Shown here: positions 1,994 to 4,926 of the stretch, piece after piece
Position numbering within the stretch: position 1 is the first letter of the stretch
Layout: each line of letters starts with the position of its first letter
Origin: Ferrimonas futtsuensis DSM 18154
GTDB lineage: Bacteria; Pseudomonadota; Gammaproteobacteria; Enterobacterales; Shewanellaceae
Length of the DNA stretch: 42,433 nt
Assembly: GCF_000422645.1 (NCBI RefSeq)
Contig: NZ_AUGL01000031.1
Span: 1 to 42,433 of the forward strand
Direction of reading: 5' to 3'
The notes under the pieces: generated by a model
What the model was told of the DNA's origin: nothing
What the model saw: the letters and a program-made list of their open reading frames with translations, nothing else
Database searches by the model: none
Position numbers and translations under genes: made by a program

Positions 1994-2209
1994 ATGTCGA
2001 AACTTATCAGTTACCTCAATGAGTTAGATTCCAATGCTGAGCTGCAGTCTGCTCATGCGGAGGATGCGGAAGCGTCGATGCGTAGCTTCGGCCTTGGTGA
2101 CAATGAAATTGCCGCAGTGCTCTCAGGAGACAACACTAAAATTGCTGAAGCGGCAGGGGTGGACGATCCTGAGATGATTGTTCGTACACCTCAAGTTCAG
2201 CAGAATTAA
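1994..2209 (+). CDS. Putative split-borosin precursor peptide (SonA-like, borosin-binding domain plus C-terminal core)
   Basis: A 71-residue acidic, helical protein without signal peptide or Cys. Its pattern is LISYLNELDSNAELQ, then EASMRSFGLGDNEIAAVL, SGDNTKI and a C-terminal tail. As I recall it, Shewanella oneidensis SonA, the split-borosin precursor, is also about 71 residues. It shares the register Leu-x(3)-Phe/Tyr near residue 7, MR-x-x-GL at 29-34, AVxxGD at 41-46, and a short exposed tail. Residues 1 to about 55 would be the LigA-like helical borosin-binding domain that docks on the methyltransferase. Residues from about 56 (DDPEMIVRTPQVQQN) would be the core. SonA is methylated near residues 63 and 65, which here are Val63 and Thr65. 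The start has a moderate purine-rich site (AGGGAATAGAGAG). The diguanylate cyclase gene begins nine bases later. Alternative: an unrelated small LigA-like or Nif11-like protein; the methyltransferase nearby makes the borosin reading better. Confidence 0.75.
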   Translation: MSKLISYLNELDSNAELQSAHAEDAEASMRSFGLGDNEIAAVLSGDNTKIAEAAGVDDPEMIVRTPQVQQN

Positions 2210-2218
2210 CGGACTCCG

Positions 2219-4051
2219 ATGCGCATTTGGCTCAGGGGTCTAATATCACTGTTGCTGAGTGCCGTATTGTTGTACGCAGGCGCCGTATTTGCTAATGGCG
2301 CTTCGGTTTCGGATCTCAGTCAGGAGATAGAGCGCATTCCTCAGCTTGCCTATGAGTCGCCAGCTGACGCTGAAGCGATCATCAAGCGCGTGAGGCGGAG
2401 CCTGGATCTGTTGACTCAGGAGTCTAAAGAGCGCTTCTTTCTCTTTGAGGCTTACTTTTATGGCGTAAGCCAAAAGCATCAAAAACGTCTTGAGTTACTT
2501 CTTTCATATGATTGGAGTGCTTCTCAACCTAAATATCAGGCCAGAGCATTCCAACAATTGGTTGATGTTCATATGAATCTTAACCAATTTGATTTGGCCT
2601 TGGACAATCTGGATCTGGCCATTCACCTGCTGCCTTTATTGCAGGAGGATACGGCCAAGATGTTGATTCTCCATTCTGCATATACTGTTTTTTCCAACCT
2701 TTATCGATATGATCAAGCTCTTAAATTTGCCGATCGAATTACAGCCCTTGGGATAGAGGGCAACTCTAAGCGAATTCAATGTTATGGCATGACTAATCGG
2801 TTGGATGCCCTGTTTCTTGATGGGCAGTTTAAGCGAGTATTACTGGAGGCCGAAGATGCCAGAGAGCTGTGCCTTTCAAGCCAGGACCAGCTTTCAGCGG
2901 ATCTTATTCATGTTTATCAACTGGTTGCATCCATACAGGTGTATGGCGGCGCGATGTACCAGGAGCAGGCAGAAGCCCTGTATGCTCAACTAAAAAACAA
3001 TCATCATGAATACACAATCCTTCTAGAGCATGCACTTGGTTCCCATTATTTTTATCAGGGACATATTGAAAGGGCGGGCGAGTTCTTCCTCAGAGCATTT
3101 AATCGGGCAGATGAACTGGATCTGCTGCGACTAAAACCCAAGCTTGCGGAGGCGGTGGCTAAGGTGAAGTGGCGCCAGCAGCGCTGGGATGAGTACGCCG
3201 CGTTCATCAATTTGACCATCGATGCTCACAAAGCCTACGAGCAGGATCTTTATGACAAGTCGGTCTATTTTCACCTGGCAAAAATTAATGCTGAGGATAT
3301 AGAAGGCCAGTTAAAGATCATCGAGGCTAAAAACCGAGAGTTGCAGCTGGAAAACCAGTTGGCAGAAACTCGTTTCAAGCACATCAGAATACTTTTTGCC
3401 TGGGCATCCATCGGCTGCTTAGCGCTGTTTGCTTTGGTGGTTTTTGTTCAAAGGCAGAAGGCCAAGATTAAGGTGTCACTGGAGACAGATACCCTGACCA
3501 AAGTGCTGTCCCGGGTGAGTTTGATGGAATCTTGTACCAAGGCGGTGGCTGAGGCGAAGCGGCGGGAGCAGCCGTTGTCTCTGGTGGTGTTTGATTTGGA
3601 CCACTTCAAGAGGGTTAACGATACCTTTGGTCATGCGGTGGGTGACTGGGTGCTGAAGACGGTGTCTCGTGTGGTGCGCAACAGTATTCGTGACAAGGAT
3701 ATTCTGGGTCGTCTTGGTGGTGAGGAGTTTGTTATCTGCCTGCCCAATACGGATATCGAACAGGCCAGGCAGTTGTCGGAGCGTTGTCGTGAGGGTTTGG
3801 AGCGGATCATTGCGCCAGTGGCCAACAACAAGCTGGATATCAGTGCCAGTTTTGGGGTGGCCAGGTTGGACGCGACCGTGGACAGTCTGGATAAGCTTCT
3901 GGTGACCGCCGATAAGTGCCTGTATCAGGCCAAGCATCTGGGGCGCAACCGGGTGGCGACGGTGCTGGATGACGACTGTACCGAAGCCTATCAGCCGTCG
4001 ATGGGCCTGTGTTCTCTGCAGGCTGAGCATGGCCAGATTCCACTGAAGTAG
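2219..4051 (+). CDS. Membrane-bound diguanylate cyclase with periplasmic TPR-like sensor
   Basis: Makes cyclic di-GMP from two GTP. The order is a signal peptide at about 1-26, a helical, TPR-like periplasmic region to about 350, a coiled coil (about 358-385), one membrane segment (about 391-411) and a GGDEF domain (about 420-585). The active site is intact: metal-binding Asp459 in FDLDHFKRVND and GGEEF at 500-504. An inhibitory site RDKD lies at 491-494, exactly five residues before GGEEF, so feedback inhibition by c-di-GMP is expected. The last 20 or so residues are unstructured. The gene begins nine bases after the precursor stop with no clear Shine-Dalgarno, suggesting translational coupling. 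The sensor part is A/T-rich (22 of 60 G+C at 2521-2580), unlike the GGDEF part and neighbours, which hints at mosaic origin. The sensed ligand is unknown. Confidence 0.92.
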   Translation: MRIWLRGLISLLLSAVLLYAGAVFANGASVSDLSQEIERIPQLAYESPADAEAIIKRVRRSLDLLTQESKERFFLFEAYFYGVSQKHQKRLELLLSYDWSASQPKYQARAFQQLVDVHMNLNQFDLALDNLDLAIHLLPLLQEDTAKMLILHSAYTVFSNLYRYDQALKFADRITALGIEGNSKRIQCYGMTNRLDALFLDGQFKRVLLEAEDARELCLSSQDQLSADLIHVYQLVASIQVYGGAMYQEQAEALYAQLKNNHHEYTILLEHALGSHYFYQGHIERAGEFFLRAFNRADELDLLRLKPKLAEAVAKVKWRQQRWDEYAAFINLTIDAHKAYEQDLYDKSVYFHLAKINAEDIEGQLKIIEAKNRELQLENQLAETRFKHIRILFAWASIGCLALFALVVFVQRQKAKIKVSLETDTLTKVLSRVSLMESCTKAVAEAKRREQPLSLVVFDLDHFKRVNDTFGHAVGDWVLKTVSRVVRNSIRDKDILGRLGGEEFVICLPNTDIEQARQLSERCREGLERIIAPVANNKLDISASFGVARLDATVDSLDKLLVTADKCLYQAKHLGRNRVATVLDDDCTEAYQPSMGLCSLQAEHGQIPLK

Positions 4052-4056
4052 AAAGG

Positions 4057-4101
4057 GCATACCCGGTGGTGGCTTATCGCCGCTATCGGGTATGCTTTTT
4101 T
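4057..4101 (+). terminator. Rho-independent terminator between diguanylate cyclase and methyltransferase genes
   Basis: GCATACCCG at 4057-4065 pairs perfectly with CGGGTATGC at 4087-4095, followed by six T. The 21-base loop can form a small inner stem (GGC/GCC). It begins six bases after the diguanylate cyclase stop and ends about 20 bases before the methyltransferase start. It should limit read-through into the methyltransferase gene. Confidence 0.8.
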
Positions 4102-4122
4102 GTTGTAGGAAGAGATAGAGCG

Positions 4123-4926
4123 ATGAGCAATCAGGGCAGTTTGGTTTGTGTGGGCTCCGGGATGCGGCTGGCGGGTCAGCTGACCCCGAAATCCAAGAGC
4201 TGCATCGAGCAGGCGGACGTGGTGCTGGCGGCCATGGCCAACCACCTGAGCCGCCAATGGATCAAGGAGATGAGCAAGGAGTATCGTTGTCTTCTGGACC
4301 TCTACGGTGAAGGCGGCGGCGAAGGCAAGCCTCGGGGCCAGACCTACGATGAGATGGCCGAGCGCATTATGGAGGAGGTGCGCAAGGGGCGCAGGGTGTG
4401 CGCGGTGTTCTATGGCCACCCCTCGGTGTTCTCCTGCATCTCCAAGAAGGCGATAGACCTCGCCCGGGCAGAAGCGTTTCCGGCGCATATGGAACCGGGA
4501 ATTTCGGCGGCGGATTGTCTGTACGCGGATCTGGAGATCGACCCGGCCAGTGCCGGCGAGCAGGCGATGGAGTGCACCCAGTTTATGATCTACGAGCGGC
4601 GCATCGACCCCAGTGCGCTGCTGATCCTGTGGCAGCCTGGCGTCGCCGGGGATCTCTCCATGAAGCGGTTTGAGACCCATCAGGCCTATATCAATTTGTT
4701 GGTGGAGAAGCTGTCCCGGGATTATCCGCTGGACCATGAGGTGATCCTGTACGAGGCGGCCACCTCGCCGTTGGAGTCCACCCGCATCGAGCGCCTGCCT
4801 CTGGCCGAGTTGACCCAGGCCACCCTGAATCAGATCACCACTTTGGTGGTGCCACCCTGTCGGGAGATGGCTGCGGATAATGCCATGTTGGATAAGCTGA
4901 AAACCTTGGCTGAAACCGTGTGGTAG
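4123..4926 (+). CDS. Borosin-type peptide alpha-N-methyltransferase (SonM/OphMA-like, tetrapyrrole methylase fold)
   Basis: 267 residues of the tetrapyrrole (corrin/porphyrin) methylase superfamily, but matching the borosin branch and not CobA/RsmI/DphB. Such enzymes transfer methyl groups from SAM to backbone amide nitrogens of a precursor peptide. N-terminal SLVCVGSGMRLAGQLT is the SAM-site strand and glycine turn. LDLYGEGGGEGKPRGQTYDEM (57 on) carries Tyr61, Arg71 and Tyr75, aligning by eye with catalytic Tyr63, Arg72 and Tyr76 of OphMA. OphMA Tyr66 has no counterpart here, as in SonM. VFYGHPSVF (95-103), EPGISAADCLYADLEIDP (124-141) and the late RIERLPLAEL and TTLVVPP segments are family hallmarks. 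The fused precursor tail of fungal borosins is absent, so this is a split form. I chose ATG 4123, which has GGAAGAGA upstream; the frame extends to 4066 but that start lies inside the terminator. Enzyme class is strong; substrate is inferred from the gene at 1994. Confidence 0.88.
   Translation: MSNQGSLVCVGSGMRLAGQLTPKSKSCIEQADVVLAAMANHLSRQWIKEMSKEYRCLLDLYGEGGGEGKPRGQTYDEMAERIMEEVRKGRRVCAVFYGHPSVFSCISKKAIDLARAEAFPAHMEPGISAADCLYADLEIDPASAGEQAMECTQFMIYERRIDPSALLILWQPGVAGDLSMKRFETHQAYINLLVEKLSRDYPLDHEVILYEAATSPLESTRIERLPLAELTQATLNQITTLVVPPCREMAADNAMLDKLKTLAETVW

Follow-up and report, generated by a model that had tools for sequence, protein, structure and literature searches.

A three-gene cassette on the forward strand of a Ferrimonas futtsuensis DSM 18154 contig (NZ_AUGL01000031.1, positions 1 to 42,433; this whole 42,433-nucleotide stretch is referred to below as the window) encodes a SonA-like borosin precursor (positions 1994–2209), a receptor-like membrane protein with a tetratricopeptide repeat (TPR) ectodomain and a GGDEF domain (2219–4051), and a SonM-type α-N-methyltransferase (4123–4926). 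We propose, with a probability of roughly two in three, that this locus is a split-borosin peptide-signalling cassette, in which the peptide would be sensed by its own periplasmic TPR receptor, here feeding into cyclic di-GMP (c-di-GMP). Direct support comes from homology, retained catalytic residues, gene linkage, receptor architecture, switching of output domains and matched divergence of the peptide core and the receptor ectodomain.

In the proposed mechanism the methyltransferase would dock on the precursor's binding domain and methylate amides in the backbone of the short core at the precursor's C terminus. Once released, this core would reach the periplasm and bind to the TPR ectodomain of the membrane receptor encoded next door, thereby setting how active the receptor's cytoplasmic GGDEF domain is and hence the level of c-di-GMP. 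In related bacteria the methyltransferase and output domain would remain near-constant while matched alleles of core and ectodomain differ, giving rise to pherotypes. We infer methylation in this species, cleavage, export and binding, together with the direction of the c-di-GMP response.

The methyltransferase gene encodes 267 amino acids from the ATG at 4123, or 286 from an alternative GTG start at 4066. A preliminary description of this DNA had called the product a SonM/OphMA-like backbone N-methyltransferase from sequence blocks particular to borosin enzymes, and these blocks (LLDLYGEGGGEGKPRGQTYDEM, VFYGHPSVF and PGISAADCLYADLEIDP) are indeed present in order and at the position given. In a sequence search against the PDB the protein matches SonM (7ltc) at E = 2e-73 across residues 5–260 and OphMA-type enzymes at E = 1e-40 to 1e-37. 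Residues Y61, R71, Y75 and Y97 align with Y58, R67, Y71 and Y93 of SonM, whose catalytic roles are described in the main text of PMC8429565; in an alignment of 41 methyltransferase relatives the three tyrosines are invariant and R71 is at least 90% conserved. There is only a negligible chance that the enzyme is instead a cobalamin-type, RsmI or MazG-associated methylase and the 71-residue protein unrelated to it. That idea draws on family names: TP_methylase is the sole Pfam family found, and the NCBIfam scan gave no match at the family cut-off, its top model being YabN, far under its own cut-off. Against it, the best uroporphyrin/precorrin methylase match reaches just E = 4e-5, which beside the SonM match led us to reject a CobA, RsmI or YabN identity, the SonM catalytic residues are retained, and the small protein matches the SonA binding-domain fold. 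The grouping with CobA/RsmI-type methylases that would have spoken against the borosin assignment was not seen: the searches place the enzyme with SonM, as does a methyltransferase tree (which contains no CobA or RsmI rows), where both fall on the same side of a supported branch.

The 71-residue precursor gives an ungapped match to SonA residues 1–55 (phmmer against the PDB, E = 2.3e-5). Its structural model, built from four Ferrimonas sequences, has a predicted local distance difference test score (pLDDT) of 83, and the top 22 Foldseek matches are all SonA chains (root mean square deviation 0.8–1.4 Å, E 0.04–0.45, the E values being weak because the query chain is so short); OphMA-type chains match it weakly. 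In the main text of PMC8429565 the SonA binding domain spans residues 1–53 and the methylation sites are L63 and I65. With the same domain limits, the predicted helical bundle of the window precursor occupies 1994–2152 and the linker and core, AGVDDPEMIVRTPQVQQN, occupy 2153–2206. In the ungapped register V63 and T65, the latter followed by proline, fall at the SonA sites and would be the methylated residues. A Pfam match to the LigA subunit (E = 0.006) lies under the cut-off and, like the presence of LigAB among the Foldseek matches, reflects a known structural relation and not a rival function, structural homologues of the binding domain being described in the same text as capping dioxygenase active sites.

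The precursor and methyltransferase are thus identified, by sequence and predicted fold, as a type IV split borosin pair, a further example of an already known kind of borosin, and the peptide backbone is probably methylated in this species. The preliminary description was right about the SonA-like precursor and its 1.9 kb distance from the methyltransferase gene, and its family assignment stands; what it missed is the receptor-like gene that fills the gap. The presence of this TPR–GGDEF protein in a three-gene cassette bears on the purpose of the peptide.

The receptor gene begins 9 nt after the precursor stop codon and encodes 610 amino acids. Hydropathy indicates a signal anchor (residues 7–25) and a membrane helix (391–409), and by the usual topology the TPR part between them would be periplasmic. 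A model of residues 1–412 is an all-helical TPR superhelix (mean pLDDT 85), with TPR matches in Pfam below the cut-off; its fold matches include peptide-binding TPR proteins, among them Rap and NprR. The GGDEF domain (3485–3952; Pfam E = 1.7e-42) has an intact GGEEF motif (3716–3730) and an RDKD sequence resembling an RxxD I-site. Receptor alignments reveal a conserved ectodomain cysteine pair, Cys188 (2780–2782) and Cys218 (2870–2872), which the model places near the start of helix 184–200 and the end of helix 204–220, so that a disulphide between them is plausible. Between the receptor and methyltransferase genes lies a terminator-like hairpin with a T run (4053–4099, forward strand), and similar inverted repeats were recognized by eye at the same place in two other loci (L034 and L035).

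The structurally characterized SonM itself sits in such a cassette. Genome G1152, which we take to be S. oneidensis MR-1, encodes a protein with 100% identity to the PDB sequence of SonM (255 residues). There the gene order is sonM, sonA (71 amino acids) and a gene for a 596-residue TPR–GGDEF protein that begins at the base after the sonA stop codon and matches our receptor profile at E = 4e-109. The main text of PMC8429565 contains neither 'GGDEF' nor 'diguanylate', and in open-licence papers we found no account of the receptor gene, its conservation or the pherotype signature, although an earlier mention of the neighbouring gene is possible. The window shares with this type IV split borosin of Shewanella oneidensis (PMC8429565) a separate methyltransferase and 71-residue precursor, the catalytic residues, the binding-domain fold and the receptor gene. 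It differs in its core, in the order of genes (precursor, receptor, methyltransferase) and in the hairpin that precedes the methyltransferase gene.

The cassette is widely conserved. A first set of 43 methyltransferase hits was found in 28 of 60 related genomes, and the window with 40 further stretches covers 42 of these hits, the one left out being the second hit of genome G011. With an iterative precursor profile built on the first-set loci themselves, a methyltransferase, a binding-domain precursor and a TPR protein occur together in the window and in 40/40 stretches; the receptor open reading frame (ORF) is split in L053, and a contig end truncates L059. A receptor profile was then built from 39 first-set proteins and applied also to a test set outside it (L097–L165), comprising all 9 further genomes from the class-level search, 57 order-level stretches picked from a longer list so as to favour families other than that of the window, and 3 phylum-level stretches. 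A receptor lies within 4 kb of 104/114 methyltransferase ORFs and on the same strand in 102; it is found beside 42/42 methyltransferase ORFs in the first set, compared with 62/72 in the test set. Precursor and receptor are at most 120 nt apart in 94 of the 98 loci that have both, and precursor and methyltransferase in 67, although these distances use the longest ORFs, so that starts are perhaps set too early.

Ten methyltransferase ORFs have no receptor within 4 kb. Six class-level cases (L100–L105) and two fused methyltransferases (L152 and L162) have neither a receptor nor a recognizable precursor; the other two, L126 and L144, lie near contig ends and have the precursor. A supported branch (99/91) of the methyltransferase tree (115 rows) has all receptor-linked enzymes to the same side, in a group of 108 rows. 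The remaining three rows on that side are L126, L144 and L104, the last on a long branch within the receptor-linked clade; L100–L103, L105, L152 and L162 lie on the opposite side. As receptor and precursor were not found with L100–L105, L152 and L162, the cassette marks one methyltransferase clade and not all borosins. The methyltransferase domains of L152 (600–2516) and L162 (2840–6364) are part of ORFs of 638 and 1174 amino acids, probably fused borosins of other types.

In the reverse direction, 45 proteins of the 60 relatives matched the receptor profile at E ≤ 1e-60, and 43 of them by position adjoin methyltransferase hits. The two others, in genomes G017 and G021 (L173 and L174), have no methyltransferase or precursor near them. 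Next in rank are a pair of G027 fragments, located on two contigs (E = 1e-51 and 4e-47), followed by weaker TPR proteins whose E values start at 2e-38. Of ten such places retrieved, six hold generic TPR proteins (L177–L182) and two hold further orphan receptors (L175 and L176). Together with the 104/114 linkage the reverse search led us to reject a chance neighbourhood of a GGDEF gene. In the window's own genome the only strong matches are two methyltransferase-linked receptors, the next reaching E = 4e-7. A wider contig scan added eight loci, three from close Ferrimonas and five distant (L076–L080), with no part of the cassette found at the thresholds used in the distant five.

The ectodomain cysteine pair, with a spacing of about 30 residues, is present in 102/118 receptors of methyltransferase loci: 90/91 GGDEF receptors have it, 2/13 kinase receptors and 10/14 receptors without an output domain. 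It is missing from 11/13, 4/14 and 1/91, respectively, the single GGDEF case being a 315-residue ORF. Membership of a generic TPR–GGDEF family was rejected as an explanation, given that six weaker TPR controls (L177–L182) lack a pair at 29–31-residue spacing; four of them have two cysteines 37–40 residues apart.

The output attached to the TPR half is variable. For the receptor nearest each methyltransferase it is GGDEF in 81 cases, a histidine kinase in 13, and none or cut off in ten, the ten being L053 (split ORF), L059 (contig cut) and eight that are TPR-only by Pfam, with signal-like N termini as judged by eye. The GGDEF motif is intact in 77/89 GGDEF receptors of at least 500 amino acids and degenerate in 12/89. 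The kinase label changes 6 times on the methyltransferase tree, and at least 5 of these changes are forced by well-supported branches. The TPR half is retained while the output changes between GGDEF, degenerate GGDEF, histidine kinase and none. The TPR-only receptors fall in two kinds of neighbourhood: L128, L130, L131 and L135 adjoin what we presume are glycine-cleavage-like genes, and L151 and L154–L156 follow genes that we take to resemble an rnf/rsx operon.

Close relatives allowed the variation within the cassette to be located. Twenty loci have methyltransferases 79–99% identical to SonM; we used 19 of these and the SonM/SonA locus as the Shewanella set, leaving out the most distant (L202), the core of which is of another kind. 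Cores fall into type II, ending in NHGNN (9 loci), and type I, the rest, mostly with ISHGNGD-like ends (11 loci); for identity comparisons and the GGDEF tree, three loci with broken receptor ORFs were left out, giving 17 rows. Core type changes once on the ectodomain tree, on a branch with support 100/100, compared with 7 times on the methyltransferase tree (348/500 shuffles as low) and 5 times on the GGDEF tree (196/500 shuffles as low). Core type equals ectodomain type in 17/17 rows. Ectodomains are 57.8–98.6% identical between loci of the same core type (66 pairs) and 45.2–54.1% identical between loci of different type (70 pairs), with no overlap between the ranges. By contrast, methyltransferase identity has a median of 89.3% for same-type and different-type pairs alike, and the GGDEF medians (84.4% and 85.6%) hardly differ. 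In the three different-type pairs that were profiled, divergence begins in the end part of the precursor and stops ahead of the GGDEF domain. Across the set, binding domain, methyltransferase and GGDEF domain are conserved beside a differing core and ectodomain. In three loci (L190, L191 and L192) the receptor ORF is interrupted while the methyltransferase and precursor ORFs are whole; such interruptions may reflect sequencing errors, or cells that produce the signal without reading it.

A similar pattern is seen in the window and four other Ferrimonas loci (L038, whose methyltransferase is 60% identical, was left out). In 10/10 pairs the methyltransferases are 91–95% and the GGDEF domains 89–96% identical, whereas the ectodomains are only 23–43% identical; the medians are 93.6% for the methyltransferase, 91.9% for GGDEF, 59.8% for the binding domain and 27.4% for the ectodomain. 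The core has also diverged. Pheromone–receptor pairs show joint divergence of this sort. Two further loci, L147 and L109, each have one methyltransferase with two precursor–receptor pairs, in which the ectodomains are 31% alike and the outputs 53% and 87% alike.

Linkage contributes to the joint inheritance of core and ectodomain, and the main rival to a ligand–receptor relationship is built on it. In that account, which we judge unlikely, the borosin would be a secreted natural product of the ordinary sort, the TPR–GGDEF protein would respond to some other cue or control the cluster, and the alleles would travel together solely because their genes adjoin. Precursor cores vary in many families of ribosomally synthesized and post-translationally modified peptides (RiPPs), and the close spacing of precursor and receptor by itself gives joint inheritance. 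However, the strong divergence in Shewanella is confined to the core and ectodomain beside much more similar methyltransferases, binding domains and GGDEF domains, precursor genes stay closer to the receptor gene than to the methyltransferase gene, and two loci pair one methyltransferase with two precursor–receptor units. It is decidedly improbable that the TPR protein serves to handle the peptide in the periplasm (as a carrier, processing platform or immunity protein), with the cytoplasmic domain a later addition. The TPR-only loci with their signal-like N termini and the switching of output domains on the methyltransferase tree fit such a role, but most loci have kept an output domain, and the 77/89 intact GGDEF motifs suggest signalling. 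We give very little credence to an entirely intracellular scheme, in which the SonA-like protein, with or without methylation, or else the complex it forms with the methyltransferase, regulates the cytoplasmic side of the receptor and nothing is exported. The precursor, as read from its sequence, has no evident export signal, and no recurrent exporter or leader peptidase was seen beside window-type cassettes among gene clusters present in several families. Yet the core-linked variation sits in the ectodomain, between the signal anchor and membrane helix, and not in the cytoplasmic domain, and the ectodomain has a conserved cysteine pair suited to a periplasmic disulphide.

Several observations weigh against the signalling proposal itself. 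One is that no recurrent exporter or peptidase was seen beside window-type cassettes. Receptors of the cysteine-pair type also occur without a methyltransferase or precursor nearby (L173–L176). The top fold matches of the receptor model are to eukaryotic LGN, and TPR matches are common and say nothing on function. The eight TPR-only receptors have no intracellular output, and together with the 12/89 degenerate GGDEF motifs they mean that output through c-di-GMP is not general. The Ferrimonas binding domains differ too (47–78% identity), so that change there is not confined to core and ectodomain. The Shewanella methyltransferase tree (20 loci) is poorly resolved, its well-supported branches forcing just 2 changes of core type, and the independent pairs, 2 on well-supported branches or 6 when all branches are counted, do not suffice for significance. 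Finally, the coding sequences of core and ectodomain adjoin, and a single recombination tract would therefore move both without any binding between them.

Several known systems resemble the proposed signalling cassette in part. OphMA-type fused fungal borosins share the homologous methyltransferase domain and, weakly, the precursor structure, but carry enzyme and substrate in one chain where the window has two genes; we know of no receptor for them. In pherotype systems such as ComQXPA and Agr, the output domain is conserved whereas the peptide and the ectodomain of its receptor diverge jointly. The cassette differs from these in its conserved modifying enzyme, its predicted N-methylated borosin peptide, its GGDEF output and its Gram-negative host. 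RRNPP receptors such as Rap and NprR have, by fold match, a TPR peptide-binding superhelix like that of the window receptor; they are cytoplasmic proteins of Firmicutes that bind re-imported peptides. The TPR part of the window receptor is predicted to be periplasmic and is joined to a membrane helix and GGDEF domain, and we did not file it with the RRNPP family because its signal anchor and membrane helix mark it as other than a soluble cytoplasmic protein. RcbB of Vibrio vulnificus also has a TPR domain that controls a diguanylate cyclase, but its partner is another TPR protein, RcbA, and the word 'methyltransferase' is absent from the main text of that report (PMC12282931).

Other features of these genomes are recorded here. 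The second borosin cassette of the window's genome (G000:C12, L033:4251–7083) has a degenerate GGDEF motif (GGNQI) and a further ectodomain cysteine pair. Extra SonA-like ORFs lie beside the methyltransferase in other Ferrimonas (L034:7344–7930, L037:5009–5155 and L038:7210–7542), where one methyltransferase perhaps serves several precursors. In a second class of cassette (for example L041:7857–8537 and L042:5750–7471) the precursors carry a PAEDD-like motif together with a long acidic tail. Among the neighbours counted for 110 loci, one BLAST cluster, represented in Pfam tests by a GNAT acetyltransferase, occurs in 32 loci (34 ORFs) and another, represented by a pepsin-like aspartyl protease, in 18; both are candidates for maturation or tailoring. 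Upstream of the window cassette are three copies of a 96-nt direct repeat (1587–1881), preceded by an IS3-type transposase fragment (9–320) and a gene resembling REP-associated tyrosine transposases (437–1411).

It seems fairly probable that the gammaproteobacterial split-borosin clade as a whole represents a widespread form of Gram-negative peptide communication, with N-methylated, type-specific pheromones, a periplasmic TPR receptor, an exchangeable output (c-di-GMP, phosphorelay or none) and pherotypes that cross species. If so, this would be the first function for type IV borosins and a new class of peptide pheromone for Gram-negative bacteria, tying backbone N-methylation to signalling. 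Should the receptor read the peptide, that function would be directly testable in a model strain through the gene next to sonA, and the pherotypes would supply natural matched peptide–receptor pairs for studies of specificity. It would also suggest that the choices of marine and metal-reducing bacteria between biofilm and motility can depend on peptide type.

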